64,000 bases of DNA from Liolophura sinensis (taxonomy: Eukaryota; Mollusca; Polyplacophora; Chitonida; Chitonidae). A program made the position numbers and the translations under genes. Each line of letters opens with the position of its first letter. Position 1 is the first letter of the stretch. Below are positions 33,140-61,400 of this stretch, piece by piece. The stretch spans positions 93,923,805 to 93,987,804 of the forward strand of contig NC_088295.1 of assembly GCF_032854445.1 (NCBI RefSeq), in the 5' to 3' direction. A model generated the notes under the pieces. The model worked only from the letters and a program-made list of their open reading frames with translations, ran no database searches and was not told the origin of the DNA.

Positions 33140-33147
33140 TATTTATA
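33140..33147 (-). promoter_or_regulatory. TATA box of Yellow-family copy 2
   Basis: TATAAATA on the minus strand, 63-70 bp before the ATG at 33,077. It is followed by a leader (gacgctgcggactgttcc) nearly identical to that of copy 1. Confidence 0.7.
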
Positions 33148-33155
33148 CCGAGCAA

Positions 33156-39465: not shown

Positions 39466-39591
39466 CTTTCTGATGCAGTTTGGGTCTGATGTATGGGACA
39501 GGAGCACCTGCTGCTACATAGGCAAAGCTTACAAGAACGTCCAACTGAGCTATGACATCATTGAGCAGACACATCGGCTCCACATAGCCAC
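39466..39591 (-). CDS. MSH2: MSH2 exon k (lever into ATPase domain)
   Basis: 126 bp; acceptor gtttcag, donor gtcagt. It reads [18 protein letters not shown] and then [17 protein letters not shown], matching the human GYVEPMQTLNDVLAQLD region, and ends K-L-H-Q-K-G. The next residues in the family lead into the ATPase domain (RHPC..., Walker A), and no exon for them is visible to the left. This is the last recognisable MSH2 exon in the window. Confidence 0.94.
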
Positions 39592-42500
39592 CTGAAACAA
39601 TGTCATAATCAGAATTCTCACCTTAGCTAAGTATGCCTTCCAAAACAGACAAGACATGAGGAGCTGTTCAAACAGGACAAGCTATATACATCTCAACTAC
39701 ATCTCCACTAGAAGCTCAAAGTTCCCTGGCTATCATTAGGTCATGTAACTTACGAAGTATAGGTCTTTACACAAGCCAAAGACAACAAGTCAAAACACCT
39801 GCTTTAGTGGAAACTTCTAAATACTGAAATACATTCTGAAATGTTTTAAAAAGTTTTACTTTAATAGTGAACATGAGGTGTCAACCCTCCGGACGCAGTA
39901 ACGTGTATGCTAACCTCTGCTAGAGAGAACTTCAGTGACAACAGACTTCTGTGACAACAGATTTACGAGGAGAACTGACCAGTGATAGAGAGGATTTCTG
40001 TGACAACAGACTTCTGAGGTGAACTAACGTGTGATAGAGAGGACTCCTGTGACAACAGATTTCCGAGGTGAACTAACCTGTGGTAGAGGGGACCTCTGAG
40101 ACAACAGATTTCTGAGGTGAACTAACCTGTTGTAGAGGGGACCTCTGAGACAACAGATTTCTGAGGTGAACTGACCTGTGGTAGAGGGGACCTCTGAGAC
40201 AACAGATTTCTGAGGTGAACTGACCTGTGGTAGAGGGGACCTCTGAGACAACAGATTTCTGAGGTGAACTGACCTGTGGTAGAGGGGACCTCTGAGACAA
40301 CAGATTTCTGAGGTGAACTAACGTGTGGTAGAGGGGATCTCTGAGACAACAGATTTCTGAGGTGAACTAACCTGTGGTAGAGGGGACCTCTGAGACAACA
40401 GATTTCTGAGGTGAACTGACCTGTGGTAGAGAGGACTTTTGTGACAACAGATTTCTGAGATGAACTAACCTGTGACAGAGAGGACTTCTGACAAGAGACC
40501 TGAGGTGCACTACCCTGTGGTAGAGAGGACTTCTGTGACAACAGATTTCTGAGGAGAAATGTTCAGTGATACAGAGCATTTCTGAGACAACAGATTTCTG
40601 AGGTGAACTGACCTGTGATAGAGAGGATTTCTGTGACAACAGACTTCTGAGATGAACTAACGCGTGGTAGAGAGGACTTTTGTGACAACAGACTTCTGAG
40701 ATGAACTAATCTGTGACAGAGAGGACTTCTGTGACAACAGATTTCTGAGATGCACTAACCTGTGGTAGAGAGGACGTCTGTGACAACAGATTTCTGAGGT
40801 GAACTAACGTGTGGTAGAGAGGACATCTGAAACAACAGACGTCTGAGGTGAACTAGCCTGTGGTAGAGAGGACTTTTGTGACAACAGACTTCTGAGATGA
40901 ACTAACCTGTGACAGAGAGGACTTCTGTGACAACAGATTTCTCAGATGCACTAACCTGTGGTAGAGAGGACTTCTGTGACAACAGACTTCTGAGATGAAC
41001 TAACCTGTGACAGAGGGGACTTCTGTGACAACAGATTTCTGAAGTGAATTGGCCAGTGATAGAGGGGACTTCTGTGACAACAGACTTCTGAGGTGTACTA
41101 AGATGTCATAGAGGGGACTTCTGTGACAACAGATTTCTGAGGTGAATGTGGTAGAGAGGACTTCTGTGATAACAGACTTCTGAGATGAACTAACCTGTGA
41201 CAGAGGGGACTTCTGTGACAACAGTTTCTGAGGTGAATGTGATAGAGAGGACTTCTGTGACAACAGATTTCTGAAGTGAATTGGCCAGTGATAGAGGGGA
41301 CTTCTGTGACAACAGACTTCTGAGGTGTACTAAGATGTCATAGAGGGGACTTCTGTGACAACAGATTTCTGAGGTGAATGTGGTAGAGAGGACTTCTGTG
41401 ATAACAGACTTCTGAGGTGAACTGACATGTGATAGACAGGATTTCTGTGACAAGAGACTTCTGAGGTGAAATGACCTGTGATAGAGAGGATTTCTGTGAC
41501 AAAAGACTTCCAAGGTGTACTAACCTGCAATAGTGATAACTTCTGTAACAACAGATTTCTGCTGTTCGTTGTAATCCTCCTTTATTTGAAGATACTCCTC
41601 ATTTAGCTTCCTCAGGGCACTGTTGTGAAAACGTACTCCGTTTTTATTGGTGTCTATAGTGATGTAGTTTTTGTTGTTTCTCAAACATCTTTCTTCCTAC
41701 AAAATTAAACCAAAAAATAAAATAATACCTAAACAGCTGCTGTCCTAATTATCTTAAATACACAAGTTGATACTCCACTGTTTTGCTCAAGCTCCATTTC
41801 TAGAGCGAACACTACATGAGAACTGTGTGGAGAGCCTGGCAATGTACACAGAAGCTTGTATTAGACTCTAGGGTAAGAGTGTAACTTTCCAGGAGTGGGC
41901 CATTGCTTATGGAATCACAAAGAACTGGTGGCAGAAACATATGGTTCACCAATCACGCTTTCCAAGAATTTACCTTCTGTGGGCAGCAATGCGTTTGAAG
42001 AATGACACAGGGCTGGTGGCAAAAAACCATAGTTCACAAAAGGTGAGGCATTGGTAAGATTGTAGTGCATCAGTGGTGTGTTAGAGATGTTCCAGAGGTA
42101 AGCTACATGTGGTTGTGAATTAGGAGTGTGCCAGACGGGAGCTGACAGTGTGGCATTGGTGAGCCTTTTCATGTGTCAGAGGTGAGATTGTAGCACATCA
42201 GTGGTGTGTTAGAGATGTTCCAGAGGTAAGCTACATGTAGTTGTGAATTAGGAGTGTGCCAGACGTGAGCTGACAGTGTGGCATTGGTGAGATTGTAGCG
42301 CATCAGTGGTGTGTTAGAGATGTTCTGGGGTGAGCCATATGTGAATTGGGAGTGTGCCAATAGTGTGGCATTGGCGAGCTAATGGTGTGCAAGAGGTGAG
42401 TTTGTAGCGCACCAGTAGTGTGGTTGTGATGAGTTTATGGTGTGCTATAATGGTGAACTACTGCAGAACTATTGCCGAGCTAGTGATTAGCTAAATGTAG

Positions 42501-45500
42501 TCAGAAAACCTAAAGTCTTATTGCCCCTGTACAAGACAAAACAAACAAGTACACCATAAAATATAGCTGCTAAAGCAGCGATGCCGGGGTTCAAGCCAGT
42601 ATTGCCAGCTTATGCAGTGTCACTTCGGGTTACCTAAAGGTGTTCATGCCTAGATATATAACCAACCTATATTCTTCTTAGTGCACTGTATGAACACTAT
42701 ACGGCATGTGTACGAAGATTTGCTAAATGTAGTCAATCGACCTGTTGGCCAATATTTGAGGGCTTGCATGTCCCCTGTTTCTTAGTACATATACAGCTCT
42801 TTACACACAGCGATTTTCAGCTTTACAGCTGTAACAGCTTTTTGTCACATGACCTGCAAAAAAGGGAGAAATTACACTTTTTTGTGTTTTGATGGCAGTT
42901 TGCGACAAAACTATACATGGCAGGACAAAACAAACAAAGACCGGATTCGTAAGTAGGACCTCAAACTACCTTGGGTGGCATAATACAATATTTCTACATT
43001 CAGCCTGGACATGAACAGATTACATACATTGGGTGGCATAATACAATATTTCTACATTCAGCCTGGACATAAACAGATTACATACATTGGGTGGCATAAT
43101 ACAATATTTCTACATTCAGCCTGGACATGAACAGATTACATACATTGGGTGGCATAATACAATATTTCTACATTCAGCCTGGACATGAACAGATTACATA
43201 CATTGGGTGGCATAATACAATATTTCTACATTCATGCTAGACATGAAGAGATTACATATGCATCCTATAACATATACGTGTACTTGTCAATGTGCCAAGA
43301 TATAGTAAATCGGCCTCTGGTCAGATTTGGAAGCTCTATGCATCCTGTATTTATTATGATCACTTACAGATTTTCAGCATACATAGAATACATATATAGT
43401 CCCTTCCACTCAGCAATTATGAACTTTACAGCTGATCAGTTTTCTATCATGTGATCTACAAATATATGAGGAAATTTTCGATTTTTGATTGCAATTTGCC
43501 ACCTAAGTACATCTTACAGAGAAATAATAAGATCTTGTTTGTGATCAGGACATTAAACTAGGTCAGGTAGCACTGATAATATTGAAATTCAACAAATAAA
43601 AAAAAATCATGTAACATCACTTTCACCGTATCGGCTAAAACTTAATTTGCATAAACATTGCATTCTTTCTTCCAAATAATCTCCAGGGAATGTTTGTAAC
43701 GTGTGCTAAATTTCATGTCAATCAGACATTTGGTTTTGAAGAAAATAACTGTTAAATGTTTTAACTTCAACCCCAAATTGCCGCCAGATCGTGTGATTAA
43801 GGACAACACAATCTTTACTCATAAGAGCGCATCTTCAGATGTATCATGAACCTAAGTTTCCACGCATTTCTGTTGAGATGCCTCAGTTTTTCAATTTTGA
43901 AAAATGTAAACATGGTGATATTTTTTTGGGTATGTACTACTTCTGGTTTGCTGACGTCACTTCTAGCTATGTAAAAGTTGTCTGCTTGCCTCGGGATGAT
44001 GTTAAACCTTAAGATTGCATCTCTAGCTTCACTTCCAGTTTTGATGATGACACATCCAATTTTGGAAAAACTGCATATTTGAAATCAGTACCTAAAATTG
44101 CATCGGATGAGACTATTTGCTGGGCATCATCTTTGGAAGTTTAGAAATTATTAGCAAACAATGGATTTTTTGGTCACATGACATTTTCACCCAATAGCGA
44201 GCCTGTCCAGTTTTCAACAGAGAAAGTACTCAATCACACCCTGAATGTACCTAAACTTTGTGCAACTGCAGTTAAAATTTCAGCTCATTTGCATTAGCTA
44301 TTCAGGAAAAGATTCTTTAGGTTTTCATCAAAATCCAAGATGGCCGCAAAGTCGAGTGATATCTGCCCAAAAAGTTGCCATGCACAACTTCAAGTCATAC
44401 ACACAAACATATCACAATTTCCTAAACATCTAATAACTACATGTACACATCAGAAGAGTAAGTGAGTGAGTGCTTGGGGTTTAACGTTGTACTTTCAGTC
44501 ATATGACGACGAACGGGTCCTTAGAGTGCATGTACGTGTAATGTGCCTCCTTGTTGCAGAACGGATTTCCACCGCTCTTTCAAAAAGGCAAGTAAGCCGC
44601 CCCATGTGAGCCATTATACTGATACAGATCAACCAGTCATTGCACTATCACCCTAATGCTGAACGTCAACCGAGGAAGTTACAACTTCCTCTTTTAAGGT
44701 TGTAGGTGTGTCCCAGGAATGACTCTGGGTCTATATTTCCCGAAGAGGACCCTCTACCAACTGAACTGTCGATGCCGGTTTCACATCAGAAGAATTAAAA
44801 ACGACAATTTACTACAACCAAAATTCATCCGTAGGCACAGGGTTCCCACTGGGTGTTTACTGGCGTAGGACATTCTTTAATCTGATTGGATAACTCTGTT
44901 ACGTACCTTTCGTGTGACACGGAAGAAATATCCCAGTTGTGCATTAGACTCAAGTTTGAGGGTCTTGTTAGGTTCCAGAGAGAGATCACGAGCAGCCTAC
45001 AACAACAATTCATGATCACATATTAGAAACCTGTTTACAATACATACTCCTTAATACTGCACATGCGCCACTATCTTCCTTTCATTTCCATCACTGCCAC
45101 CGCTAGCAAAATTTGCACGGGAATCTTCAACAATGTCAAGGTCACTGGTGTCATGGCGATGGGGCAAGAAGTGATGTCATAAAACAATAAACACTGTGTC
45201 TCAATCTTTGTTTCTAATACTAAATTGTACAAATACATTATCTTTATCTTAAGTCCATGTATGCACAACATGACTGTAATGGATATGTATGCACAACATG
45301 TCTGTAATGGACATGTATGCACAACATGACTGTAATGGACATGTATGCACAACATGACTGTAATGGACATGTATGCACAACATGTCTGTAATGGACATGT
45401 ATGCACAACATGTCTGTAATGGACATGTATGCACAACATGACTGTAATGGACATGTATGCACAACATGACTGTAATGGACATGTATGCACAACATGTCTG

Positions 45501-48500
45501 TAATGGACATGTATGCACAACATGGCTGTAATGGACATGTATGCACAACATGACTGTAATGGACATGTATGCACAACATGACTGTAATGGACATGTATGC
45601 ACAACATGACTGTAATGGACATGTATGCACAACATGACTGTAATGGACATGTATGCACAACATGACTGTAATGGACATGTATGCACAACATGTCTGTAAT
45701 GGACATGTATGCACAACATGTCTGTAATGGACATGTATGCACAACATGTCTGTAATGGACATGTATGCACAACATGACTTTAATGGACATGTATGCACAA
45801 CATGACTGTTATGGGCATGTAAGCACAACATGTCTGTAATGGACATGTATGCACAACATGTCTGTAATGGACATGTATGCACAACATGACTGTAATGGAC
45901 ATGTATGCACAACATGTCTGTAATGGACATGTATGCACAACATGTCTGTAATGGACATGTATGCACAACATGACTGTAATGGACATGCATGCACAACATG
46001 ACTGTAATGGACATGTATGCACAACATGACTAATGGGCATGTATGTACAATATGACTGTTATGGGCATGTAAGCATAACATGATTGTAATGGGCATGTAT
46101 GCACAACATGGCTGTAATGGACATGTATGCACAACATGACTGTAATGGACATGTATGCACAACATGACTGTAATGGACATGTATGCACAACATGACTGTA
46201 ATGGACATGTATGCACAACATGTCTGTAATGGGCATGTATGCACAACATGTCTGTAATGGACATGTATGCACAACATGACTGTAATGGACATGTATGCAC
46301 AACATGACTGTAATGGACATGCATGCACAACATGACTGTAATGGACATGTATGTACAACATGGCTGTAATGGGCATGTATGCACAACATGACTGTAATGG
46401 GCATGTATGCACAACATGACTGTAATGGACATGTATGTACAAAATGACTGTAATGGACATCTGATAAAGCCTAGATAAAACCAGGCGTGTCCCACAGGCT
46501 CCAAGAGTCAAGCTTGCCTAGTGGAGGCAGTGATTTAAAGTGAGAGTAGAGAGCTCAACATGACCCATAAGGAGTATGACAATTAACCTATTCATTGTTT
46601 CCATCTTTAGCTCACGTTTTCCAATAACAAATGACAATGTGTCCAAAGATATATTCCTGGGGTTGTTAATAAGAGTAATATGACCAGTACTTATTTAGGG
46701 TGGGGCGAGTAAGCTGGTTGAGCTATGTACACCACCCCCAGATGTTTGTGTTGACTCACCTGGCCAGTGTTTATTCCAGGTGGGGCGAGGAAGCTGGTTG
46801 AGCTATGTTCACCCCCCAGATGTTTGTGTTGACTCACCTGGCCAGTGTTTATGTAGGGTGGGGCGAGGAAGCTGGTCGATCTATGTACACCCCCAGATGT
46901 TTGTGTTGACTCACCTGGCCAGTGTTTATGTAGGGTGGGGCGAGGAAGCTGGTTGAGCTATGTCCACCCCCCAGATGTTTCTGCCGACTCACCTGACCAG
47001 TATTTATTTACGGTGGGATGAGGAAACTGGTTGAGCTATGTACACCCCCAGATGTTTGTGTTGACTCACCTGACCAGTATTTATGTAGGGTGGGGCGAGG
47101 AAGCTGGTCGATCTATGTACACCCCCAGATGTTTGTGTTGACTCACCTGACAAGTGTTCATTCCAGGTGGGGCGAAGAAGCTGGTTGAGCCATGTACATC
47201 CCCAGATGTTTGTGTTGACTCACCTGACCAGTGTTTATTTAGGGTGGGGCGAGGAAGCTGGTCGATATATGTACACCACCCCCAGATGTTTGTGTTGACT
47301 CACCTGACAAGTGTTCATTCCAGGTGGGGTGAGGAAGCTGGTTGAGCCATGTACACCCCCAGATGTTTGTGTTGACTCACCTGACCAGTGTTCATTCCAG
47401 GTGGGGCGAAGAAGCTGGTCGATCTATGTACACCACCACCAGATGTTTGTGTTGACTCACCTGACAAGTGTTCATTCCAGTTGGGGTGAGGAAGCTGGTC
47501 GAGCCATGTACACCCCAGATGTTTGTGTTGACTCACCTGACCAGTGTTCATTCCAGGTGGCGTGAGGAAGCTGGTCGATCTATGTACACCACCCAAAGAT
47601 GTTTGTGTTGACTCACCTGGCCAGTGTTTATTTACGGTGGGGCAAAGAAGCTGGTTGAGCTATGTACACCACCCCCAGATGTTTGTGTTGACTCACCTGA
47701 CCAGTGTTTACTTAGGGTGGGGCGAGGAAGCTGGTCGAGCCGGGTACACCCCCAGATTTTTGCGTTGACTCACCTGGCCAGTGTTTATTTAGGGTGGGGC
47801 GAGGAAGCTGGTCGATCTATGTACACCACCCCCAGATGTTTGTGTTGACTCACCTGACCAGTGTTTATTTACGGTGGGGCGAAGAAGCTGGTCGATCTAT
47901 GTACACCACCCCCAGATGTTTGTGTTGACTCACCTGACAAGTGTTTATTTACGGTGGGGCGAGGAAGCTGGTCGATCTATGTACACCCCCAGATGTTTGT
48001 GTTGACTCACCTGACAAGTGTTCATTCCAGGTGGGGTGAGGAAGCTGGTCGATCTATGTACACCACCCCCAGGTGTTTGTGTTGACTCACCTGGCCAGTG
48101 TTTATTTACAGTGGGTTGAGGAAGCTGGTCGATCTATGTACACCCCCAGATGTTTGTGTTGACTCACCTGACAAGTGTTCATTCCAGGTGGGGTGAGGAA
48201 GCTGGTCGATCTATGTACACCACCCCCAGATGTTTGTGTTGACTCACCTGGCCAGTGTTTATTCCAGGTGGGGCGAAGAAGCTGGTCGATCTATGTACAC
48301 CACCCCCAGATGTTTGTGTTGATTCGCCTGACAAGTGTTCATTCCAGGTGGCGTGAGGAAGCTGGTCGAGCCATGTACATCCCCAGATGTTTGTGTTGAC
48401 TCACCTGGCCAGTGTTTATTTAGGGTGGGGCGAGGAAGCTGGTCGATCTATGTACACCCCCAGATGTTTGTGTTGACTCACCTGACCAGTGTTTATTTAG

Positions 48501-51500
48501 GGTGGGGCGAAGAAGCTGGTCGATCTATGTACACCACCCCCAGATGTTTGTGTTGACTCACCTGGCCAGTGTTTATTTAGGGTGGGGCGAAGAAGCTGGT
48601 CGATCTATGTACACCACCCCCAGATGTTTGTGTTGATTCGCCTGACAAGTGTTCATTCCAGGTGGCGTGAGGAAGCTGGTCGATCTATGTACACCACCCC
48701 CAGATGTTTGTGTTGATTCGCCTGACAAGTGTTCATTCCAGGTGGGGCGAAGAAGCTGGTCGATCTATGTACACCACCCCCAGGTGTTTGTGTTGACTCA
48801 CCTGGCCAGTGTTTATTTACAGTGGGTTGAGGAAGCTGGTCGATCTATGTACATCCCCAGATGTTTGTGTTGACTCACCTGGCCAGTGTTTATTTAGGGT
48901 GGGGCGAGGAAGCTGGTCGATCTATGTACACCCCCAGATGTTTGTGTTGACTCACCTGGCCAGTGTTTATTTAGGGTGGGGCGATGCTGACTCACCCGGT
49001 TTGTGATTATCAGTCACACTGTGTGATGTTTATGTTGACCTACCTTATTTGTGATTATCAGTCACACTATGTGATGTTGTGTTGACTCACCTTATTTGTG
49101 ATTATCAGTCAGATTGTGATGTTTGTGTTGACTCACCTTATTTGTGATTATCAGTCAGATTGTGATGTTTGTGTTGACTCACCCGGTTTGTGATTATCAG
49201 TCAGATTGTGATGGTTTGTGCTGACTCACCTTATTTGTGATTATCAGTCAGATTGTGATGTTTGTGTTGACTCACCTTATTTGTGATTATCAGTCAGATT
49301 GTGATGTTTATGTTGACTCAACTTGTTTGTGATTATCAGTCACACAGTGATGTTTGTGTTGAATCACCTTGTTTGTGATTATCAGTCAGATTGTGATGTT
49401 TGTGTTGACTCACTTTATTTGTGATTATCAGTCACACTGTGATGTTTGTGCTGACTCACCTTGTTCAACTGAGCCTTGATGCTTTCCTCTAACTCATCCA
49501 TACGTTCACGGAGACCTGAAAGTCAGGACATCAATGCTTGCTTTATCTGACAACATACAATATCATGTCTATATACAGGTGTATACATGCAGGACCAATT
49601 GATGGCATGTGCTTCGTTAGCTCGGAGATCCATTGGCCATGTTCCCAGCTAGCTTTCCCATTAAAACACTCTGAATCAATACATTCACTAATCTGAAATT
49701 CGAAAAAAGTCCCTGTCTCGATGCTGAACGCCACAAAAAGAGGTGCCCGTGCCCTAAAAGTAATTCTGAATTGATATCACCTCATTACGTGGGAATAGTA
49801 AGGACAATAACATCGCAATTAATGCAAAAGTCACCATGCAATCCACAGGACTGCATTAGAACTTCATAAACCTGAATTTTCGAATCACGTCACTTGTCTG
49901 ATCATCTCATTTTCTCATAACAGTGAAAGTTCCTTTCTGTGCATAATTAACTCACAAATTTAAGTTAAGACTTCCACACAATTTGTCAGTTGCCTTTTAG
50001 ATGGTGTACATCTTGTTGTCTCAATTTATTTATTTATTTGATTGATGTTTTATGCTGTACTCAAGAATATTTCACTTATACAACGGCGGCCAGCATTATG
50101 GTGGGAGGAAAGCGGGCAGAGCCCGGGAAAACCCACAACCATCCGCAGGTTGCTGGCAGACCTTCCCACGTACGGCCGGATAAGGAAGCCAGCGTTGGTC
50201 TCAATCAGATCATGCCACGAGTTTATCTTTTTCTGGACAAGTGCAGCCAACTCAAACTGAAAATGCAGTCAGCGAAGTTTGTCCTTACTGCCGATGTGAC
50301 AGGTACATTTGTGTTATATGTGACATTATGGTCTTTAATATGCATGAATAACTAAGTGATACGAAGAATTACAGGAAACCTGCTTTTGTAGTGAAAAGCT
50401 TCAATATATTTCTATATATTTCAGAAATCAACGCTCCAAAGGCATGTAAGCGTTCACACCTGGATATGCAGAAGGGGGATTTTACAAATCCAGTAGATTA
50501 TATGTTAGTGTTTCACACCTGGATATGCAGAAGGGGGATTTTACAAATCCAGTAGATTATATGTAAGTGTTTCAAACCTGGATATGCAGAAGGGGGATTT
50601 TACAAATCCAGTAGATTACATGTAAGTGTTTCACACCTGGATATGCAGAAGGGGGATTTTACAAATCCAGTAGATTATATGTAAGTGTTTCACACCTGGA
50701 TATGCAGAAGGGGGATTTTACAAATCCAGTAGATTATATGTAAGTGTTTCACACCTGGATATGCAGAAGGGGGAATTTACAAATCCAGTAGATTATATGT
50801 AAGTGTTTCAAACCTGGATATGCAGAAGGGGATTTTACAAATCCAGTAGATTACATGTAAGTGTTTCACACCTGGATATGCAGAAGGGGGATTTTACAAA
50901 TCCAGTAGATTATATGTAAGTGTTTCACACCTGGATATGCAGAAGGGGGATTTTACAAATCCAGTAGATTATATGTAAGTGTTTCACACCTGGATATGCA
51001 GAAGGGGGATTTTACAAATCCAGTAGATTATATGTAAGTGTTTCACACCTGGATATGCAGAAGGGGGATTTTACAAATCCAGTAGATTATATGTACTGTA
51101 TACATACAGGGATTCATTATTCATTAATAATGTGCAGCTTAAGTAAGACTACACACATTTACACCAGTTCCTGTTATTGGAGAAACCTTTTTGGTTTTCC
51201 TTATAGGTGGAGTAGATCCTTTTTTTTTGTAAATGATGCTGATACTCCTGCCATATGGAGAATTGAGGTGCATCTCACCGGTCAGTCCTTCATCAAAGTC
51301 TGGCTTTATAAGGTACTCATGGTTTTCCACCTGGGACAGGTCAACTGTTGCCTCTACCATTTCCTGGTACTTACTGAAGTCCATCAACAATTCCTGTAAT
51401 CATGGCAACACAAACTATACAATTCCTGTAATCATGGCAACACAAACTATACAGTACTTATCCATCTAGTGAAGGAAACACTTCCCTGCTTTTCTGTTGT

Positions 51501-54500
51501 TTATTTTTAACAGAACAAATATTCCTCTTTATTCACAGGGCTCCAGATCTGATAAGATCATTTCCAAAGGTTCACACAACAATGTCATTATTGAGGGGTC
51601 AAAGGGTTGACTAAAATGCCACTGTCAGAATTCCACAAAACCTGTTAATGTTGTTAACGACCTAAAATTCCTCTCACCAAAGAGCAATTTTAGAGGCAAT
51701 AAACGTGACCAAATATTACTGTAGGTGATAAAACTTTTCCCAATAGGATATTATTCAGCCTCCTACAAGAAAACACCTTTCTAGGATGAATGGACCTCTC
51801 AGAAACAGGAAAAATGAGCAACATCGTCTTGGATGAAACTTTAGGTCTATCACCATTGTAGTCAAAGCTACTCAGGTTGATAAATACGATGTCCACAGAC
51901 TCTGTGCTATTTCAGCGTGTCCTTTATTTGTATGCCTTTGCCCATTCTCACTACTTGAGGAGCTTTGGTCACAATAATTCACACACCACTTTTGACATAA
52001 TTTCCTGTAGAATGTCCGTCCTCACCAGACATCCTCACCACAATCAGCTATTCTCACCTTCATAGGATTTGTGAAACTTCCATTAGTAAGTTCCTGTGCT
52101 TGCCCCCATGTTTCTCCAAACGCCTCTAACAAATATGGCATTTTGTCCAGGCCTTGATACACTCTATAGCAGTCCTGTCAAGGAGAGATAACAACCATAA
52201 TTGAGACACCAGTGGTGTAACTTAACGCTTTCCTCATCAAAGAGTAGAAAATCTCTCCGGCAACCAACTTTGCCAATGTGCCTGCCCCCACCAGAAAGTG
52301 CATTTCTTTTGCCGATCAGTCCGGTCTAAAGTATCAGAAGTCAGTAATGTTATTCATTGAAACACAAATTCTTCAGCATGGCATTAAGTACAATCAAACA
52401 GGCAACTAAATAAATAAATTTTATTGAAGCAAATCCTCCGCCGAAGCAAAATAAAAACAAACCCTCAAATAAAATGGCTGTCACAACAACCTAGAGAAGG
52501 AGGCTATTTGTACTCTTCACAATCTGGGACGTTTCGTTACACAACTTGCAAGAGTACAACCCTGCGGAATTTCCCCTATCACAGAGAATGTACTTTCATC
52601 CCTGGGTTGACTGCAATGCTTTTACAGTTGTCAAGTGACGATGCATCACTTTTTGACAAATTATAAAGGCCCTCCCGGAAATGCCGATAGAAACTCGTGG
52701 GCTTCAAAATCAGCTACTACAAATGTGGAATACAACCATTACAAGCGACAATGGCAGTCTGTTCGGTCTTGGAAGGTAACGATTCCATGGGCGACTGAAG
52801 TGGAATATGGATGTGGAACCCGGCACACGTAAATACATCGTGTGCTCCATTTGCAGTGAATACACCGACGTCAAGCTTTGCACTGACCCTAATGACAGGA
52901 CTTAAAATGATCCTTTTATTCATGGCTGCAGTTTAGCATGTAACAATGCACTTTCAGAAGTACATTATGAAAAAGGCATTAAAATGATTCTGACATTTTT
53001 TTTTTTTTCTGACAAGAAATTATCACGCTTCACAAGAAACTCTTAACTGGCCCTGGTTGAATCATTGATAATCACATAAAATTTGCCACCTGAAGAATAC
53101 TAAACTTTAGGTGAAATACAGTAATTTACAGAATATTTCACTCATACGACAGCAGACAGCATTATGGTGAGGAAACCAAGACCATCCACGGATTGCTAGC
53201 AGCATTTCCCACATACACAGCGGACAGTAATTATGGTGGGGAAACCCAAGACCATCCACGGATTGCTAGCAGCATTTCCCACATACAACAGCAGACAGTA
53301 TTATGGTGGGGAAACCCAAGACCATCCACGGATTGCTAGCAGCATTTCCCACATACAACAGCAGACAGTATTATGGTGGGAAACCCAAGACCATCCACGG
53401 ATTGCTAGCAGCATTTCCCACATACAACAGCGCACAGTATTATGGTGGGGAAACCCCAAGACCATCCATGGATTGCTAGCAGCATTTCCCACATACAACA
53501 GCGGACAGTATTATGGTGGGGAAACCCAAGACCATCCACGGATTGCTAGCAGCATTTCCCACATACAACAGCAGACAGTATTATGGTGGGGAAACCCAAA
53601 ACCATCCACGGACTGCTAGCAGCATTTCCCACATACAACAGCGGACAGTATTATGGTGGGGAAACCCAAGGCCATCCACGGATTGCTAGCAGTATTCCCC
53701 ACATGCGACAGGCAAGGAAGCCAGCATGAACTGGACCTGAACTCATCACCATCTGAAAGGCGCCAGGGCCACTGCCTTAGTGGCTCCCTAACTCGGCCAT
53801 GGGGGCCCCTACCAGGCATATGACATGTTAAATATTTGTTGCTGGAATCTTACTTCCTGCTAGGTATTTGAACATTAAAATTTCAGGCCAATTGAAAATA
53901 TTTCAGGGCAACCAGGTTTAAGATTTTGGTTGCTCTGATGGCAACCACCTGAAAAAGTAAAGTTAAACCACTGGATAGAGGGGAGAAAATCATAGATGAG
54001 AGGGCGTGCAGCAGAAAGACTCTCAGCAGGGTTGGGATTAAGAGAAGAACGCTTATTTGGGTTACACATGGATCGCCATCCGTCTAATTATGGGGAACGG
54101 TTGCCTTTTCGCCTGGAGCTAAGGCTAAGATTCAAACATTTTAAGTTCACAGAGAAAAGGGCTTTAAAATCTGAACAGCAGGACAAGTTTAAGTCGATTT
54201 ACTCTGGCACTTGTCATCATACTGTCATCATTTTGGACGATGAGCAGTCTGCACTCATAGCAATCTATGGGCATTATATTAATCATTTTGGACATTAAAC
54301 GCGCCTCCACACTAAAGACTTCCACGTAGCCACGCACACTGAAAGTCAGCTAAAATGGTCAGTTGATCTCCGAGAAAATGTCGAAAAAGTAAGGGGACAA
54401 TTTCTGTCACGGAAAAAACACTTCTTTCGTGGGACTTTCACGATGACTTTACATATGAAATGAGTGAAGACAAATGATTGACTAGACTCTAATGTAAAGT

Positions 54501-57500
54501 ATGTTTGGAAAATATTCCCAAGATTCGTGGCGAGGCAAAGATTCGAGGCATCGGTGGACAGTCACTGCAGCCCCTCATAAACCATGTGGACGGTGTAACT
54601 TACGTCCACAAATCCAATGTGACAAGACATGTCAAGTCCGGATCTTTGCATGACTGGGCAAAGCTAAAATTCTGTTTATTTAGGCAATGAGAACCATCGG
54701 CAACAACAACATGCACTGTTTGCAGCACGAGTAGCACACAGGTTACCATCACCGGAGATTAATGCCAACCCTGCTCAGATAGCTTATGAAGAGAACAACG
54801 AGTAACATTACCAGAGCTTGGACGTAACTATAAAACAACTGAGGCCTTCTAGCTACAAATTGCTTGAGCAAGGTATAAACTGAAACTAGACAAAAAGTTG
54901 GCATCAGTAATCATAAACAGAAACTCACCTGCAGGTTGGCTTTCTTTCGCTGAAATTTTTTGGAAAGGCGTTGGAAATCAGGAATTCTTCGCAGCTGATC
55001 TTCCTGTAGAATTTGTCGTAACTCTGTGTCTTCCATGAATGACTCCACAATATTGAGTCGCTCCTCTGGTAGAGCCAGAAATAAAAATATCGTAAGGGTC
55101 AAGCTTCTAGTGTACAGGGCAGACAAAACTACTGCTATGACCAAATGCCAAGCCGAGTCATAAACATGTACATCCGATGTGTATCAGAGTGGGCTGGCAA
55201 TTCATCTCAAACCACATTCTTACTGAAGTTAAAGGCATGTGTATTTGTGGTATTTACAGGTATGTACATGTAAAGGAATGTTACTTGATACATGTACCAA
55301 CCTCCAAAAATTGACCCCAATACAAAGGTCATCTGTTTTATGGGCTCATAAACCTACCCCCTCTGACTAGTCACTGACAAACTTTTCCACATCTAAAATA
55401 TGTAACATGCAGACTTTTTAAAGCTTATAAACCATTCTTGGTGAAGCTTATGTATCATGTTGATATCAACCAAGACTGTGGTATACGGTGGGGAAACCCA
55501 AGACCATCCACGGATTGCTAGCAGCATTTCCCACATACAACAGCAGACAGTATTATGGTGGGGAAACCCAAGACCATCCACGGATTGCTAGCAGCATTTC
55601 CCACATACAACAGCGGACAGTATTATGGTGGGGAAACCCAAGACCATCCACGGATTGCTAGCAGCATTTCCCACATACAACAGCAGACAGTATTATGGTG
55701 GGGAAACCCAAGACCATCCACCGATTGCTAGCAGCATTTCCCACATACAACAGCGGACAGTATTATGGTGGGGGAAACAGAAGACCATCCACATATTGCT
55801 AGCAGCATTTCCCACATACAACAGCGGACAGTATTATGGTGGGGAAACCCAAGACCATCCACGGATTGCTAGCAGCATTTCCCACATACAACAGCGGACA
55901 GTATTATGGTGGGGAAACCCAAGACCATCCACGGATTGCTAGCAGCATTTCCCACATACAACAGCGGACAGCATTATGGTGGGGAAACCCAAAACCATCC
56001 AAGGATTGCTGGCTGACCTTTCCACGTATGGCCAGAGAGGAAGCCACATGAGATGAACTTGAATTCAGAGCAACCAGAGCAGGTCAATACGCTGCGCTAT
56101 CTGGACTTTGAGACAGACACTGTAACCATTAGGCCACCAAAGCAGTCGTATCCTTTTGATATCAACCAATGGCTGCATATCTAACAATGGCTGCATATCA
56201 ACCAATGGCCACATATCAACCACTGGCTGTATATTAACCAATGGCTGCATATCAACAAATGTGTGCATATCTAACAATGGCCCCAAATCAGCCCATGGCT
56301 GCATATCAACCAATGCCTGCATGTCAATCAATGGCTGCATATCAACCTATGACTGAAGATCAACCAATGGCTGCATATCTAACAATGGCTGCATATCAAC
56401 CAATGGCTGCATATCTTACAATGGCTGCATATCTAACAATGGCTGCTTATTAACCTATGGCTGAATATCAACCAATGGCTACATATCTAACAATGGCTGC
56501 ATATCTAACAATGGCTGCATATCTAACAATGGCTGCATATAAACCAATGGCTGCATATCTAACAATGGCTGCATATCAACCAATGGCTGCATATCAACCA
56601 ATGGCTGCATATCAACCAATGGCCGCATATCTAACAATGGCCGCATATCAACCAATGGCCGCATATCTAACAATGGCTGCATATGTTATTTATTTTTATT
56701 TATTTGATTGGTGTTTTATGCCGTACTCAAGAATGTTTCACTTATAAGACAGCGGCCAGCATTATGGTGGGTGGAAATCGGGCAGAGCCCGGGGCAAACC
56801 CACGACCATGCTGGAGAGGAAGCCAGCATGAGCTGGACTTGAACTCACAGCGACCGCATTGGTGAGAGGCTCCTGAGTCCTTACGCTGCGCTAGCGCGTT
56901 AACCAACTGAACCGCGGAGGCCCCCTGCATATCTTACAATGGACGCATATTAACCTATGGCTGCATATCTAATAATGGCTGCATATCAACCAATGGCTGC
57001 ATACCAACCAATGGTGAAGAATAAAATGTCCGAAAGAAAGTTTACCTATCCTATTGATATCAACCAGTGGCTGTTTTACCCACTGTGACAACAGCCTCTG
57101 ACCTTGGGCCGTCCGACATTTATTCAACAGTCCCAGGATGCACTGGTTCTTATTCCCACCTGCATTTGACAAAAGAATAAATGTTGTCATATGAAGTTTA
57201 CATTCTGTTGCTTTTCTATTTTAACACTTCAAGAATACCCAGCTTAATTTGACTAGAAGATGACAGGAATCTCTCTGAAGATCAGTCTATATTTACATTA
57301 TACCAAAAAACCAAATATCACATATAATAATTTACCAGATTTATTCACATCTTGATGTGTACCATCAATAGTGGATCTGCATGTACTTTATGCTCAACTC
57401 ACACTAGTTTTACTCACCCCCCACCCACCACCTCCCTTTGTCCCTGGCCTGACATCCTCACCTCCCTTTGTCCCTGGCCTGACATCCCCACCTCCCTTTG

Positions 57501-60500
57501 TCCCCGGCCTCACACCCCCATCTCCCTTTGTCCCTGGTCTGACATCCCCACCTCCCTTTGTCCCTGGCCTGACATCCCCAATCCCTTTGTCCCTGCCCTC
57601 ACACCCCCACCTCCCTTTGTAACTGGCCTCACACCCCCACCTCCCTTTGTCCCCGGCCTCACACCCCCACCTCCCTTTGTCCCCGGCCTCACAGCCTCAC
57701 CTCCATTGTCCTTGGCCTCACACCCCCACCTCTATTTGTCCCCAGCCTCACACCCCCACCTCCCTTTGTCCCTGGCCTCCCTTTGTCCCTGGCCTCCCTT
57801 TGTCCCCGGCCTCACACCCCCACCTCTCTTTGTCCCTGGCCTCACACCCCCACCTCCCTTTGTCCCCGGCCTCACACCCCCACCTCCCTTTGTCCCCAGC
57901 CTCACACCCTCACCTCCCATTGTCCCTGGCCTCACATCCCCACCTCCCTTAGTCCCCAGCCTCACCTCCCATTGTCCCTAGCCTCACACCCCCACCTCCC
58001 TTTGTCCCCAGCCTCACACCCTCACCTCCCTTTGTCCCTGGCCTCACATCCCCACCTCCCTTGTATTGTTGCTTTTTGTATGTTTGAATGTATGTACCTT
58101 CACTTTCCAAATTACACGATGCTTTATGTTCTTTTATATATGCTGATGTATTTTGATTGAACTCATTTCCTATATATTGTTTTCTCTGTAAGGGCCTTGG
58201 GGAAGAACAGTTTAATTGTAAATTAGCCGAGCTAAATTCAATAATTATTAATTATCCGCCTTTATCCACTGGCTCCATGCCCACCTCCCCAATTATCCCA
58301 TGGACTCACCTTCTAGAGAGTTAGGCAGCAGGTTCAGGGCTCTGACAGCAGCTGCATCTAGCCGTAAATACTGATCCAAATCAAACGATGTCAAGCTGAA
58401 CTGGTTAAAATTATCTTCATCTGATAACAACTGAAGCACAATAAACATACCTCCTGTCAATCAGATAAATGTATGTGTATTGTGCAGGCAATAACAGTCA
58501 TCAAAAATCAATTCATCAACAATGTTTGCAGATAAATATGGCGTTAGTGAGCCAGTGTAGCAGCAACCTTGCAATCCAGGTATTTCATCTTCCCTCCGGG
58601 TATCTCATCTTCCCTCCAGGTATTTGATCTTACCTCCAGCTATCTGGTCTTACCTCCAGGTATTTGATCTTACATCCACATATTTCATCTTACCTCCAGG
58701 TATTTGATCTTACATCCGGGTATTTCATCTTACCTCCACATATTTCATCTTACCTCCAGGTATGTGATCTTACTTCCACATATTTGTTTTTACCTCCAGG
58801 TATTTGATCTTACCTCCACACATTTGTTTTTACCTCCAGGTATTTAATCTTACATCAAGGTATTTGATCTTACATCTACATATTTGTTTTTACCTCCAGG
58901 TATTTGTGTTTACCTCCAGGCATTTGATCTTACATCCAGGTATTTGATCTTACATCCTCAAATTTGTTTTCACCTCGAGGTATTAGATCTTACCTCTAGG
59001 TATTTGATCTTACTTCCACGTATTTGATCCTACCTCCAGGAATTTGATTTTTACCTCCACATATTTGATGTTATCTCCACATATTTGATCTTACCTCCAG
59101 GAATTTGATTTTTACCTCCACGTATTTGATCTCACCTTTAGGTATTTGATCTTACATGTAACCCTTGGTTTTGATCTTTCCAAGCATTTGATTTTACCAA
59201 ATTTGCTCTCAACTCTTAGTTTTGTTCTCACCTGCATCTCATCTCCAGGTATTTGATCTGACCTCCAGGTATTTGGTCTTACATTAAGGTCTTTGTTCAC
59301 AACTTCAGGTATTTGATCACACCTTCAGGTATTTGACACCATCTCCAAGTATTTTACTTCACCCTCAGTTATCTGACCTCACCTCCAGGTATTTGGTTTT
59401 ACATTCTGGTATTTGGTCAGAACTTCAGGTATTTGATCACACCTTCAGGTATTTGACTTCATCCCAAAGTATTTTACCTCACCCTCAGGTATCTGATCTC
59501 ACCACCAGGTATTTGGTCTCACAACTTCAGGTATTTGATCACACCTTCAGGTATTTTACTTCACCCTCAGGTATCTGATCTCACCTCCAGGTATTTGGTT
59601 TTACATTCTGGTATTTGATCAGAACTTCAGGTATTTAATCACACCTTCAGGTATTTGACTTCATCCCAAAGTATTTTACCTCACCCTCAGGTATCTGATC
59701 TCACCACCAGGTATTTGGTCTCACAACTTCAGGTATCTGATCATACCTTCAGGTATTTGATCATACCTGCAGGTATTTGACCACACCTTCAGGTATTTGA
59801 CCACACCTTCAGGTATTTTTCATCTCCAGGTATTTAAGCTTACCTCAAGGTACCTGTATGTTTTTGTATCCCACTTTCAGGTATTTGATCTTACCTCAAG
59901 GTATTTGATGAGACTGGAGATACAGCTCATGGCATGGCATTTGTCCATCTCCGCTGAAATACAGGAATAATCAGAGTCAGGAAATTCAACATTAAAAACA
60001 AGACCACTGATGCTGCTAGAAGATTTTGATACAGACTTGATATTTTCTGTATCATCTATAACTTTCTTATAAACTGATCTCTATCTTTTTTACCATTGAT
60101 ACAGATATAGTGTTTGATGTACATAGCTGGACATTGACACATTAAATAACGAAAACTCCTGGTTCCTGATTCAGATGCACCTTTACAGGAACAATACAAG
60201 GCATCATAGCTGTTATTATACAAAAGGTAATTTAATGACAGCCAAACATGACAGAACACAACGACCCAACAGAACACACCACAACCAAACAGGACAGAAA
60301 ACAACAACCAAACAGAACACACAACAACCAAACAGAACATACCACAACCAAACAAGACAGAAAACAATAACCAAACTAAACATACCACAACCAAACAGGC
60401 CAGAAAACAACAACCAAACAGAACACACAACAACCAAACAGAACACATAACCACCAAACAGAACACATCACCACCAAACAGAACACATCACAACCCAACA

Positions 60501-61400
60501 GAACATGTAACAACCAACAAAGAACATACCACAACCAAACATGACGGAAACAACAACCAAACAGAGAACATAACAACCAAACAGAGCACACCACAACCAA
60601 ACGGGACACACAACAACCAAACTGGACAGACAACAACAACCAAACAGAACACATATCAACCAAACAGAACACACCTGTCACCACAACCAAACCAGACAGA
60701 AAACAATAACTCAACAGAACACACAACAACAAAACAGAACACACCGCAACCAAGCAAATATTGACCAACAAAGTTGACAATTGTTAGCCAGCCCATCTGG
60801 GAATGAAAAGCACAACCGAAGTGTGACCAGAACAAGCAATTACCAGCACAAAGAACAGCCAATCACCACCACACAGAGCAGGCAATCACGAAGATGCAGA
60901 ACAGGCAATCCACCCCACCCCCCCTTCAATAAAGAACAGGCAATCTCCCCCCCCCTCTCCCCGCTAAAGACCAGGCAATTCCCCCACCCCCCCCTGGCCT
61001 CCCATCCGCCCGCCCTCCCAATACAGAACAGGCAATCACCAACATACAGAACAGGCAATCAGCACGATACAGAACAGGCAATCACCTCAATACAGAGCAG
61101 GCAATCACCACCACACAGAGCAGGCAATCAGCACAATACAGAACAGGCAATCACCTCCATACAGAGCAGGCAATCAACATACAGAGCAGGCAAACACCAC
61201 CGTACAGAACAGGCAATCACTTCCATAATGAGTAGGCATTCACCTCCATACAGAGCAGGCAATCACCTCCATACACAACAGGAAATGACAATCAAGCAGA
61301 CTGGTGTACATACGTAGTGCTGAGCTGTTTGGCTGCTCTCCCTTTTTGAACTTCACCAGCCTGTTCAAATCTTGAACATTGTCTTTGGTTGTGAACTCAG
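39466..61400 (-). CDS. MSH2: MSH2 (DNA mismatch repair), 11 internal exons, both ends missing
   Basis: Eleven minus-strand exons (61,314-61,400; 59,895-59,953; 58,310-58,430; 57,046-57,159; 54,929-55,065; 52,058-52,174; 51,279-51,393; 49,460-49,515; 44,907-44,996; 41,525-41,696; 39,466-39,591) join into one frame of 1,194 bp, 397 whole codons with no stop. All have AG acceptors and GT donors. The peptide aligns end to end with human MSH2 (recalled, about residues 230-617): end of the connector, lever, clamp, lever. MSH2 pairs with MSH6 or MSH3 to recognise mismatches in nuclear DNA. The N-terminal mismatch-binding domain should lie right of the window. The ATPase domain should be left of 39,466 but is not seen. 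Nearly every intron contains a minisatellite. Confidence 0.95.
39592..39898 (-). other. MSH2 intron, non-repetitive part
   Basis: Unremarkable intron sequence between the acceptor of the last exon and the 49-bp array. Confidence 0.6.
39899..41524 (-). repeat. 49-bp minisatellite made of an MSH2 exon end plus its splice donor
   Basis: About 32 units. On the sense (minus) strand each unit reads cagaaatctgttgtcacaga, agtcctctctatcacag and then gttagttcacctc. The neighbouring MSH2 exon (41,525-41,696) ends cagaaatctgttgttacaga, agttatcactattgcag and continues gttagtacacc into the intron. Each unit is therefore a diverged copy of the last ~37 bp of the exon plus about 12 bp of intron, and most units keep a GT donor. 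The array runs up to the real donor without a break. The minus-frame peptide QKSVVTEV repeats the exon's own residues. Confidence 0.95.
41525..41696 (-). CDS. MSH2: MSH2 exon j (clamp and second lever)
   Basis: 172 bp; acceptor attttgtag, donor gttagt. It reads [20 protein letters not shown], then [19 protein letters not shown] and ends [13 protein letters not shown], matching human [20 protein letters not shown] and KLTSLNEEYTKNK. Its 3' end is the apparent source of the adjacent 49-bp array. Confidence 0.95.
42030..42430. repeat. Imperfect tandem repeat, about 110-120 bp x 3
   Basis: Copies share catcagtggtgtgttagaga, tgttccagaggtaagctac, tgaattaggagtgtgcc and gtgtggcattggtgag. It lies in an MSH2 intron. 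Confidence 0.85.
42431..44454 (-). other. MSH2 intron with old dispersed repeats
   Basis: It contains a 58-bp tandem repeat (42,960-43,245; units cattgggtggcataataca and attcagcctggacatg, five copies). The flanks of that array (about 42.7-42.95 and 43.27-43.55 kb) look like diverged copies of each other. No exon is seen. Confidence 0.6.
44455..44785 (-). mobile_element. tRNA-derived SINE (family 2)
   Basis: The minus strand starts accggcatcgacagttcagt, then tggtagagggtcctcttcgg, a tRNA-like head with box A. It ends near 44,460 in gttaaaccccaagcactc plus an ACTC-repeat tail. Internal words include gttgtactttcagtcatatg and acaacttcctcttttaa. The tail is the likely seed of the 61.6-63.4 kb array. 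Confidence 0.8.
44907..44996 (-). CDS. MSH2: MSH2 exon i (clamp)
   Basis: 90 bp, exactly 30 codons; acceptor gttgtag, donor gtacgt. It reads [18 protein letters not shown] and [12 protein letters not shown], matching human AARDLGLDPGKQIKLDSS and AQFGYYFRVTCK. Confidence 0.95.
45255..46460. repeat. 28-bp minisatellite, about 43 units
   Basis: Units read tgtaatggacatgtatgc then acaacatgac or acaacatgtc. The array begins about 250 bp upstream of the acceptor of exon i, in the long intron between exons h and i. Long minus frames ([12 protein letters not shown]) are products of the repeat. Confidence 0.97.
46461..46689 (-). other. MSH2 intron, unique stretch
   Basis: Short single-copy-like segment between two arrays. 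Confidence 0.5.
46690..48985 (-). repeat. About 77-80-bp minisatellite containing a donor-like core, about 29 units
   Basis: Units contain ggtggggcgaggaagctgg, tcgatctatgtacacc and cccagatgtttgtgttgact plus cacct. The last words match the plus-strand sequence at the donor of MSH2 exon h (gatgtttgtgctgact plus cacc). On the sense strand each unit therefore offers an AGGTGAGTCA-type donor. Confidence 0.92.
48990..49459 (-). repeat. About 45-bp minisatellite abutting the exon h donor
   Basis: About ten units: gatgtttgtgttgactcacc, then ttatttgtgattatcagtca. The last unit runs directly into exon h (cacc at 49,457-49,460 spans the donor). Some units (for example at 49,368) extend the match into exonic TTGTT, so the copied segment included the donor and the last exon bases. 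Confidence 0.93.
49460..49515 (-). CDS. MSH2: MSH2 exon h (lever to clamp, 56 bp)
   Basis: Short exon; acceptor ctttcag, donor gtgagt. Two bases complete the Gly started in exon g, then [18 protein letters not shown], matching human LREIMNDLEKKMQSTLIS. Its size makes it easy to miss by gene finders. Confidence 0.92.
49516..50439 (-). other. MSH2 intron with a SINE
   Basis: It contains the SINE at 50,025-50,192. A minus-strand stretch at 50,190-50,265 after an AG reads [13 protein letters not shown] but would put a stop in the MSH2 frame, so it is not called as an exon. Confidence 0.6.
50025..50192 (-). mobile_element. SINE (family 1)
   Basis: atttatttatttatttgat tail, tactcaagaatatttcact, ggcggccagcattatggtgg, gggcagagcccgggaaaac, cacgtacggccgg and gaagccagc; the tRNA-like head is missing. 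Confidence 0.9.
50440..51095. repeat. 59-bp minisatellite, 11 units
   Basis: Units read tttcacacctggatatgcag, aagggggattttacaaatcc and agtagattatatgtaagtg. They are very uniform, implying recent expansion. It lies about 180 bp past the donor of exon g. Confidence 0.96.
51279..51393 (-). CDS. MSH2: MSH2 exon g (lever)
   Basis: 115 bp; acceptor gattacag, donor gtgaga. It reads [18 protein letters not shown] then [18 protein letters not shown], matching human DFSKFQEMIETTLDMDQ and VENHEFLVKPSFD. Its acceptor region is duplicated immediately upstream. Confidence 0.96.
51386..51455 (-). repeat. Tandem duplication of the exon g acceptor
   Basis: Two adjacent copies of a roughly 32-bp plus-strand segment, caattcctgtaatcatgg followed by caacacaaactata. 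Each copy includes the AG acceptor and the first exon bases (GAATTG on the minus strand), giving two candidate acceptors about 30 bp apart. Confidence 0.88.
52058..52174 (-). CDS. MSH2: MSH2 exon f (lever)
   Basis: 117 bp, 39 codons; acceptor cttgacag, donor gtgaga. It reads [18 protein letters not shown], matching human DCYRLYQGINQLPNVIQA. The rest ([16 protein letters not shown]) is more divergent, as in other animals' MSH2. Confidence 0.93.
52175..53124 (-). other. MSH2 intron, no repeat recognised
   Basis: About 950 bp with open frames on both strands (for example 52,635-52,832 plus) but no recognisable domain. Confidence 0.5.
53125..53815 (-). mobile_element. SINE (family 1) with its core expanded into a 70-bp array
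   Basis: The outer parts are SINE: gaatatttcactcatacgac at the left and gaagccagcatgaactgg plus gggggcccct at the right. Between them, about eight 70-bp units (gacagtattatggtgggg, aaacccaagaccatccacgg, attgctagcagcatttccc) match the SINE core (cagcattatggtggg, ccatccgcaggttgctgg, cagaccttccc) with an internal deletion. The array therefore grew inside a SINE copy. Confidence 0.9.
53816..54492 (-). other. MSH2 intron, unassigned
   Basis: A 100-codon plus-strand frame (53,996-54,298) has no recognised domain. No exon of MSH2 is seen. Confidence 0.45.
54493..54690 (+). pseudogene. Possible zinc-finger/transposase fragment
   Basis: A plus-strand frame starts [16 protein letters not shown] and ends [18 protein letters not shown]. 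The C-x2-C followed by H-x6-H recalls BED- or TTF-type zinc fingers found in hAT transposases and their domesticated relatives. A stop codon stands directly before the first Cys and another soon after, so this is a fragment, opposite in strand to MSH2 and inside its intron. The assignment is tentative. Confidence 0.3.
54929..55065 (-). CDS. MSH2: MSH2 exon e (lever)
   Basis: 137 bp; acceptor ctaccag, donor gtgagt. It reads [18 protein letters not shown], then [18 protein letters not shown] and [10 protein letters not shown], very close to human EERLNLVEAFVEDAELRQ and LLRRFPDLNRLAKKFQRQ. This is the most diagnostic MSH2 exon in the window. Confidence 0.98.
55066..55484 (-). other. MSH2 intron, unique stretch
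   Basis: Unremarkable, AT-rich sequence. Confidence 0.5.
55485..56140 (-). mobile_element. Second SINE with core expanded into a 70-bp array
   Basis: About seven units nearly identical to those at 53.2-53.7 kb, closed on the right by SINE 3'-side sequence (cacgtatggccagagagg, gaagccacatgagatgaac, tacgctgcgctatctgg) that leads into a degenerate tRNA-like head. No SINE tail is seen on the left. It lies in the intron next to the first such array. Confidence 0.88.
56147..57020 (-). repeat. 18-bp minisatellite made of the MSH2 exon d 3' end
   Basis: On the minus strand the units read cagccattggttgatatg or cagccattgttagatatg (encoding [12 protein letters not shown]). The 3' end of exon d reads cagccactggttgatatc followed by aataggatag and encodes QPLVDINRI. 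The farthest unit (about 56,147-56,180) keeps the longest match, including aaaaggata, so it still spells QPLVDIKRI. The array is interrupted by a full SINE (56,686-56,928). Confidence 0.93.
56686..56928 (-). mobile_element. Near-complete SINE (family 1) inside the 18-bp array
   Basis: Minus-strand element. The head ggggcctccgcggttcagtt, then ggttaacgcgctagcgcag, holds a tRNA-like box A. A box-B-like gagttcaagtccagc follows, then the conserved core and an AAATA-rich tail. The flanking array word ctgcatat stands on both sides and may be the target-site duplication. It is the best reference copy of this family in the window. Confidence 0.9.
57046..57159 (-). CDS. MSH2: MSH2 exon d (connector/lever)
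   Basis: 114 bp; acceptor aaatgcag, donor gtaaac. It reads [18 protein letters not shown], then [18 protein letters not shown], matching human [20 protein letters not shown] and IKQPLMDKNRIE. Its 3' end is the source of the neighbouring 18-bp array. Confidence 0.97.
57160..57417 (-). other. MSH2 intron, unique stretch
   Basis: Short intron segment upstream of the exon d acceptor, no repeat seen. Confidence 0.5.
57418..58062 (-). repeat. About 30-bp G-rich (sense) minisatellite near exon c
   Basis: Plus-strand units: cctcacacccccacctccct plus ttgtccccgg. The sense strand is therefore rich in GGG and GGGGG runs (gggaggtgggggtgtgagg). The first intron bases after exon c (minus strand from 58,309) contain ggggaggtgggcatgg, agcc and ggataaagg, a close match to the unit. 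Confidence 0.93.
58063..58309 (-). other. MSH2 intron next to exon c donor
   Basis: The right end (58,260-58,309) resembles the G-rich array unit; the rest is AT-rich. Confidence 0.5.
58310..58430 (-). CDS. MSH2: MSH2 exon c (connector to lever)
   Basis: 121 bp; acceptor gcttcag, donor gtgagt. It reads [18 protein letters not shown], then [18 protein letters not shown], matching human LLSDDSNFGQFELTTFD and [15 protein letters not shown]. Confidence 0.97.
58570..59894 (-). repeat. About 20-bp minisatellite made of the exon b/intron junction, about 65 units
   Basis: Plus-strand units read ccaggtatttgatcttacct. On the sense strand this is agatcaaatacctggaggta, which is the end of exon b (atcaaataccttgag) plus its gtaaga donor. 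Many units keep a perfect GAG-GTAAGA donor. The array abuts the true donor at 59,895. Variants (tcagg, ccaca, ttcagg) form sub-blocks; the right third is more regular. Confidence 0.95.
59895..59953 (-). CDS. MSH2: MSH2 exon b (connector, 59 bp)
   Basis: Acceptor atttcag, donor gtaaga. Two bases finish the Pro begun in exon a, then [19 protein letters not shown], matching human EMENQVAVSSLSAVIKFLE. The frame is kept on both sides. Confidence 0.94.
59954..60234 (-). other. MSH2 intron, unique stretch
   Basis: AT-rich; no feature seen. Confidence 0.5.
60235..60760. repeat. About 20-22-bp irregular minisatellite
   Basis: Units of the type aaccaaacagaacacacc and acaaccaaacaggacagaa. Almost all purine plus C on the plus strand, so the sense strand is T/G-rich. 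Confidence 0.92.
60860..61280 (-). repeat. About 23-bp minisatellite near the exon a donor
   Basis: Units read gagcaggcaatcacctcc plus ataca. A C-rich interruption (poly-C runs at 60,912-61,018) lies in the left part. The array ends about 35-40 bp from the donor at 61,313; the last part (aacaggaaatgacaatcaag) looks like a decayed unit. Confidence 0.92.
61314..61400 (-). CDS. MSH2: MSH2 exon a (connector)
   Basis: 87 bp; acceptor caatttcag, donor gtatgt. Two bases complete a codon (Ala in the family), then [18 protein letters not shown] and [10 protein letters not shown], matching human DFSTKDIYQDLNRLLKGK and KGEQMNSAVL. It is the most N-terminal MSH2 exon visible. Confidence 0.96.

Follow-up and report, generated by a model that had tools for sequence, protein, structure and literature searches.

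Minisatellites built from exon edges in introns of a chiton MSH2 gene: a probable by-product of a repeat-rich region

Several introns of the MSH2 gene of the chiton Liolophura sinensis contain tandem arrays whose repeated units include a piece of the neighbouring exon. In the arrays that follow exons b, d, h and j, the similarity to the end of the preceding exon exceeds chance, and arrays of a comparable kind derive from splice acceptors in kinesin genes. A general mechanism operating at splice donors is not supported. These arrays are probably ordinary intronic minisatellites in which the founding duplication fell by chance over an exon edge, reflecting random birth and tolerance in a repeat-rich region.

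The MSH2 locus and its arrays

The window, that is, the whole stretch of 64,000 nucleotides that was analysed, corresponds to C1:93923805-93987804 in a genome of 609,464,459 bases in 632 contigs; C1 itself (96,433,062 bases) ends about 2.4 Mb beyond the window. The assembly was first published as Liolophura japonica and was built, according to the accessible part of that report, from HiFi reads (PMC11068029). Its authors later changed the name to L. sinensis (PMC12441733).

In the 200 kb around the window, residues 30–629 of human MSH2 are matched on the minus strand, on which the exons in the window lie, and residues 655–929 on the plus strand further to the right. The minus-strand part belongs to a 59-kb contig flanked by two gaps of 200 N (Table 1). 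Flipping this contig restores the collinearity of MSH2, and thus the split across strands is most simply read as a scaffolding error, not as a broken gene. The predicted model, with junctions assigned from DNA alone, comprises 26 exons with 25 donors and as many acceptors. At exon l, which lies outside the window (L015, about 3950-4005), homology to human MSH2 is seen in two different frames.

No further multi-exon gene from the surrounding 264 kb was used, judging by the 45 longest of 378 open frames of at least 70 codons, among which a single-exon gene family was foremost by eye. Five related uninterrupted open frames of about 490-535 codons occur here, two of them on the minus strand of the window (14992-16527 and 31641-33185) and three more in the flanks. 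They are candidate members of the yellow/major royal jelly protein family.

Table 1. Exons, arrays and assembly gaps at the MSH2 locus (window positions unless marked C1)
Feature	Position	Strand	Remarks
200-N gap	36114..36313		left edge of the mis-oriented contig holding MSH2 up to exon k
Second 200-N gap	C1:94019309-94019508		outside the window
MSH2 exon a	61314..61400	-	donor after 61314
MSH2 exon b	59895..59953	-	donor after 59895
MSH2 exon c	58310..58430	-	donor after 58310
MSH2 exon d	57046..57159	-	donor after 57046
MSH2 exon g	51279..51393	-	
MSH2 exon h	49460..49515	-	donor after 49460
MSH2 exon j	41525..41696	-	donor after 41525
MSH2 exon k	39466..39591	-	donor after 39466
Array near donor a	61021..61286		23/69-bp unit; starts 27 bp from the donor; unrelated to the junction
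Donor-derived array after b	58575..59852	-	20-bp unit: GTAAG preceded by about 15 nt of the exon's end
Array beyond c	57422..58062		starts 247 bp from the donor; weak similarity
Exon-end-derived 18-bp arrays after d	56925-57014 and 56159-56684 (span 56159..57014)	-	dispersed element between them
Two-copy 32-bp duplication over the exon g acceptor	51387..51453	-	
Donor-derived array after h	48988..49462	-	46-bp unit: 6 exon bases, GTGAGT and a longer intron part
Second array after h	46681..48984	-	about 80-bp unit, also with the donor segment
Donor-derived array after j	39944..41561	-	49-bp unit: ~37 nt from the exon's end plus 12 nt of intron
Array beyond k	38204..39352		113 bp from the donor; unrelated to the junction

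Tandem arrays make up 38% of the window. Along MSH2 they consist of units of roughly 10-100 bp repeated inside introns, which makes them intronic minisatellites. The units after exons b, d, h and j carry their own exon end, and those after b, h and j also include the GT of the donor. At exon d the alignment ends one base before the junction; this array thus originates in the exon end and lacks the donor GT. The sequence-only reading, which had placed arrays with exon-end or donor sequence after these four exons, was right in every case.

The similarity was judged, array by array, against a null of 1000 random non-array 60-mers set beside the true junction. Of the 1000 nulls, one did as well as the junction for either d array, none did so for either h array, and 11 did for the b array, whose null is contaminated by unmasked parts of that same array. 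The array after j, which the filter of this comparison passed over, has a period of 49 and matches its own exon end over 35 exon bases. The array near donor a shows no relation to its junction, with 815 of 1000 nulls as good, while the one beyond donor c has a weak similarity (39 of 1000), and no similarity was found between the exon k junction and the array close to it. Arrays within about 50 bp of donors a and c had also been described; the distance proved correct for a and too short for c (Table 1).

Outside the segment from exon a to exon k, three further donor-derived repeats occur in MSH2, at n2, n5 and c3; the repeat at c3 has no more than about three copies. The sole case among the 25 MSH2 acceptors is the two-copy duplication at exon g, already recognised as the only acceptor-side event in that segment.

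A SINE-like dispersed element is also present at this locus, near 50030-50200 and 56690-56920, and interrupts the array after exon d. By eye, two 70-bp arrays (53135-53711 and 55487-56010) look like amplified pieces of this element. Their apparent origin from it fits the founding of arrays at arbitrary places.

Donor and acceptor junctions compared

The comparison of the two splice-site kinds covered 169 junctions of one genome, 84 donors and 85 acceptors, from MSH2 and 17 kinesin stretches (L023-L039). These stretches hold 60 of the 132 exon matches of a kinesin profile search and were selected for their match rank and for how many exon matches they contain, not randomly. Their 59 donors and 60 acceptors were assigned from profile matches, splice-site scores and inspection by eye, leaving out exons without a profile match and junctions for which no assignment was possible. 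Two of the stretches, L024 and L025, probably form one gene, because they lie within 11 kb of each other and match neighbouring profile positions. All 169 junctions went through one alignment test with a threshold of 15. Scores of reversed-flank controls did not exceed 11, and those of swapped-junction controls (30 per junction) did not exceed 14.5, apart from two junctions at 17.5 and 16.0.

By this test, repeat units spanning the exon–intron junction occur at 8 of 84 donors and 4 of 85 acceptors (Fisher p=0.25), the d unit stopping one base short. The sample is compatible with a modest donor bias, the pooled odds ratio being 2.1. Within MSH2, the counts are 7/25 donors versus 1/25 acceptors (p=0.049), although p-values for this gene are optimistic, since it was chosen for its pattern. 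The segment from exon a to exon k alone gives 4/11 versus 1/11 (p=0.31), and the remainder of the gene 3/14 versus 0/14. Beyond MSH2, no donor excess was found, as the kinesins yield 1/59 donors versus 3/60 acceptors (p=0.62).

The only donor-derived kinesin array, in L025, has a 63-bp unit in about 17 copies; the exon 4 donor of L026 scored a borderline 14.0, just below the threshold. Arrays derived from acceptors are found in L028 (64-bp unit, about 12 copies), L027 (27-bp unit, about 44 copies) and L024 (44-bp unit, about 28 copies), where the exon 1 acceptor is a choice among possible AGs and is less certain.

A word test was applied to the whole genome, recording exact copies for which a second copy starts 20-50 bp on, and thereby counting copies, not arrays. 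The donor 9-mer CAGGTAAGT occurs 9807 times, 386 of them with such a second copy (3.9%). Three control words of matched base composition gave 228/4849 (4.7%), 456/9629 (4.7%) and 719/12663 (5.7%), so the donor word is not over-represented genome-wide in tandem copies of this period. The rows for C1 contain 14 donor-word clusters versus 11 for one control word. A clear donor excess, on which the sequence-only reading depended, is seen neither in these words nor in the sampled junctions taken together.

Position relative to the junctions was assessed by array coverage, the MSH2 k-l intron being excluded because of the gap inside it. Arrays cover 71% of intron interiors in MSH2 and 26% in the kinesins, and of 400 intron points drawn at random from each, 298 and 110, respectively, pass the copy test. 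At 5, 50 and 75 bp into the intron, MSH2 donors lie inside arrays in 4/24, 7/24 and 9/24 cases, and MSH2 acceptors in 1/24, 1/24 and 0/24. The corresponding kinesin values are 1/59, 3/58 and 5/57 for donors and 3/60, 4/59 and 5/58 for acceptors. In MSH2 and kinesins alike, coverage is lower by junctions of both kinds and climbs with distance. By this measure junctions are depleted in arrays, in MSH2 donors less so than acceptors, and it does not show the proposed clustering of minisatellites at MSH2 donors. With all genes combined, 14/81 donors and 5/82 acceptors lie in arrays at 75 bp (p=0.03). This modest asymmetry stems from MSH2 and may reflect different survival of duplications at acceptors.

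Because expansion inflates coverage, a founder-unit null was added, in which founders take up 7.5% of the ancestral intron in MSH2 and 1.9% in the kinesins. For MSH2 donors it predicts 1.9 cases where 7 are observed (p=0.002), and for MSH2 acceptors 1.9 where 1 is observed. In the kinesins, 1 donor case stands against 1.1 expected and 3 acceptor cases against 1.2. The founder-unit null is therefore kinder to the idea of donor clustering in MSH2, though not in the kinesins.

Coverage also depends on chromosomal position, decreasing with distance to the contig end across the 17 kinesin stretches (rho=-0.66, p=0.004). Ten of the 17 have a coverage of at most 1%, and L030, which is devoid of arrays with a contig end 0.19 Mb away, is an exception to the trend. 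MSH2 is located in an array-rich, near-terminal region. The earlier suspicion that the link with a mismatch-repair gene may be accidental agrees with an array load that tracks nearness to chromosome ends in these stretches. At the last MSH2 exon (C1:94059301 on, plus strand, outside the window), partial copies follow the coding end and the stop codon it contains (98 bp, 2.2 copies), which indicates that an exon end can be duplicated without any donor.

Decoy splice sites and the origin of the arrays

Decoy donors were counted as intron sites scoring at least as high as the true donor, up to 3 kb after it, with the antisense strand as control. In MSH2, 15 such sites follow exon j, nine follow b, six follow n2 and four follow h, versus 0-1 on the antisense strand; no excess over antisense was found in n5, d, c3 and L025. 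Decoy acceptors at least as strong as the true site precede it 20 times in L024, 10 times in L028 and nine times in L027 (antisense 0-2), and the exon g acceptor has no excess (2 versus 3 antisense). Near-equal decoys, within 2 bits, are not commoner after b than on the antisense strand (25 versus 30). The first donor, or the last acceptor, would be the site in use, because only that choice keeps the conserved protein. Selection eroding decoy donors was also considered, with a mixed outcome: copies differ from the true site at donor positions in n5 and L025, not in b, and no h or j copies were found at the mismatch limit used.

Under the favoured explanation, short tandem duplications would arise at many sites in a repeat-rich region, and some would span an exon–intron junction. 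Such a duplication would be harmless when an undamaged exon edge stays where it was in one of the copies; at a donor, or around a stop codon, this would be the first copy, and at an acceptor the last. The surplus copies would sit in non-coding DNA, where they could expand to dozens. Both the duplication and the expansion are steps that we infer. The occurrence of exon-edge arrays at both kinds of splice site in other genes argues for a by-product of a repeat-rich region and not for a donor mechanism. Of the three suggestions made in the sequence-only reading, the best support goes to a tolerance of donor duplications that leave the first site working. Counting against this explanation are the donor-heavy distribution in MSH2 with its low founder-null probability, seen also outside the segment from exon a to exon k, the donor excess at 75 bp and the array-free L030, as well as the assignment of junctions from DNA alone.

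The same MSH2 counts are what would be expected if minisatellites were actively seeded by splice donors, with R-loops or nicks at 5' splice sites under transcription as conceivable routes and MSH2 as a strong example. Such seeding is quite unlikely, as kinesin donors carry no more arrays than the founder null predicts and the kinesins lean, if anything, towards acceptors, the donor word shows no excess in short-period arrays, and MSH2 was picked for its pattern; the large acceptor arrays and the non-significant pooled comparison likewise speak against the mechanism at 5' splice sites that had been thought conceivable. Duplications might instead be unbiased and then removed more strongly by selection at acceptors, where an upstream copy is likelier to be used, leaving a modest donor excess. 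This is unlikely as well: the asymmetry at 75 bp that it would explain is driven by MSH2, it is absent from the kinesins at that distance and at 5-50 bp, and L024, L027 and L028 tolerate big arrays derived from acceptors. It is rather unlikely, too, that in repeat-rich chiton regions transcribed 5' splice sites seed minisatellites several-fold above other intron points, while many downstream copies of the donor, as strong as the true one or stronger, are reliably passed over by the spliceosome. If donor seeding and decoy neglect were both true, MSH2 would be one among many genes with natural arrays of decoy donors.

A function of the donor arrays in MSH2, such as buffering or regulating the splicing of a repair gene, could draw on the four introns (n2, b, h and j) rich in donors as strong as the true one. 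It is very improbable, since the other four donor-derived repeats lack a decoy excess, kinesin junctions bear similar arrays, and with unit lengths of 20, 46 and 49 the use of a later copy would cause a frameshift. The mis-oriented contig at the locus raises the thought that the arrays were created by wrong joining of reads, but this is scarcely credible for an assembly from HiFi reads, given that the copies have diverged from one another and that the four arrays in question do not adjoin the two gaps. Chance founding over exon edges, followed by tolerance, thus remains the preferred account.

Comparison with known systems

Natural genes of this kind, with 4-20 sites of equal strength next to the true donor or acceptor, offer a test set for how the spliceosome selects the first of several donors or the last of several acceptors. 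Exon-edge arrays also represent a simple model for how minisatellites acquire exon fragments, and exon pieces repeated within introns can mislead gene prediction.

No title reporting junction-derived arrays in chitons was present among the matches listed for the minisatellite, intron-origin, mollusc and chiton repeat literature, and the accessible portion of an earthworm paper with intronic minisatellites does not mention junction-derived units (PMC12783039). Splice-donor-derived minisatellites had been supposed to be undescribed as a general class. In human segmental duplications, as the available part of the report states, tandem repeats at exon–intron boundaries were described as a group (PMC2812944). 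As far as that part goes, these human repeats resemble the chiton arrays in being short tandem units that straddle the boundary and include the splice site; they vary between recent paralogs, and novel introns as well as alternative transcripts were reported to result from them (PMC2812944). The chiton arrays differ in belonging to a conserved single gene and to kinesins of a mollusc, in reaching tens of copies and in being known from their DNA only.

Intron gain through tandem duplication of a proto-splice site was reportedly proposed by Zhuo et al. in 2007. For Drosophila, intron gain by tandem duplication has been reported, and in the part of that work available here the duplicated sequence holds a splice signal, as in the chiton arrays (PMC2891723). 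Unlike intron gain, which yields a new intron, the chiton duplication lengthens an existing intron at its edge.

Minisatellites cluster in subtelomeric regions more widely. Human examples named in the accessible text of one report are HRAS1, CEB1 and CEB25 (PMC3486850). The human subtelomeric minisatellites and the chiton arrays share units of tens of base pairs, and the chiton arrays, across 17 stretches of one assembly, become denser towards the chromosome ends.
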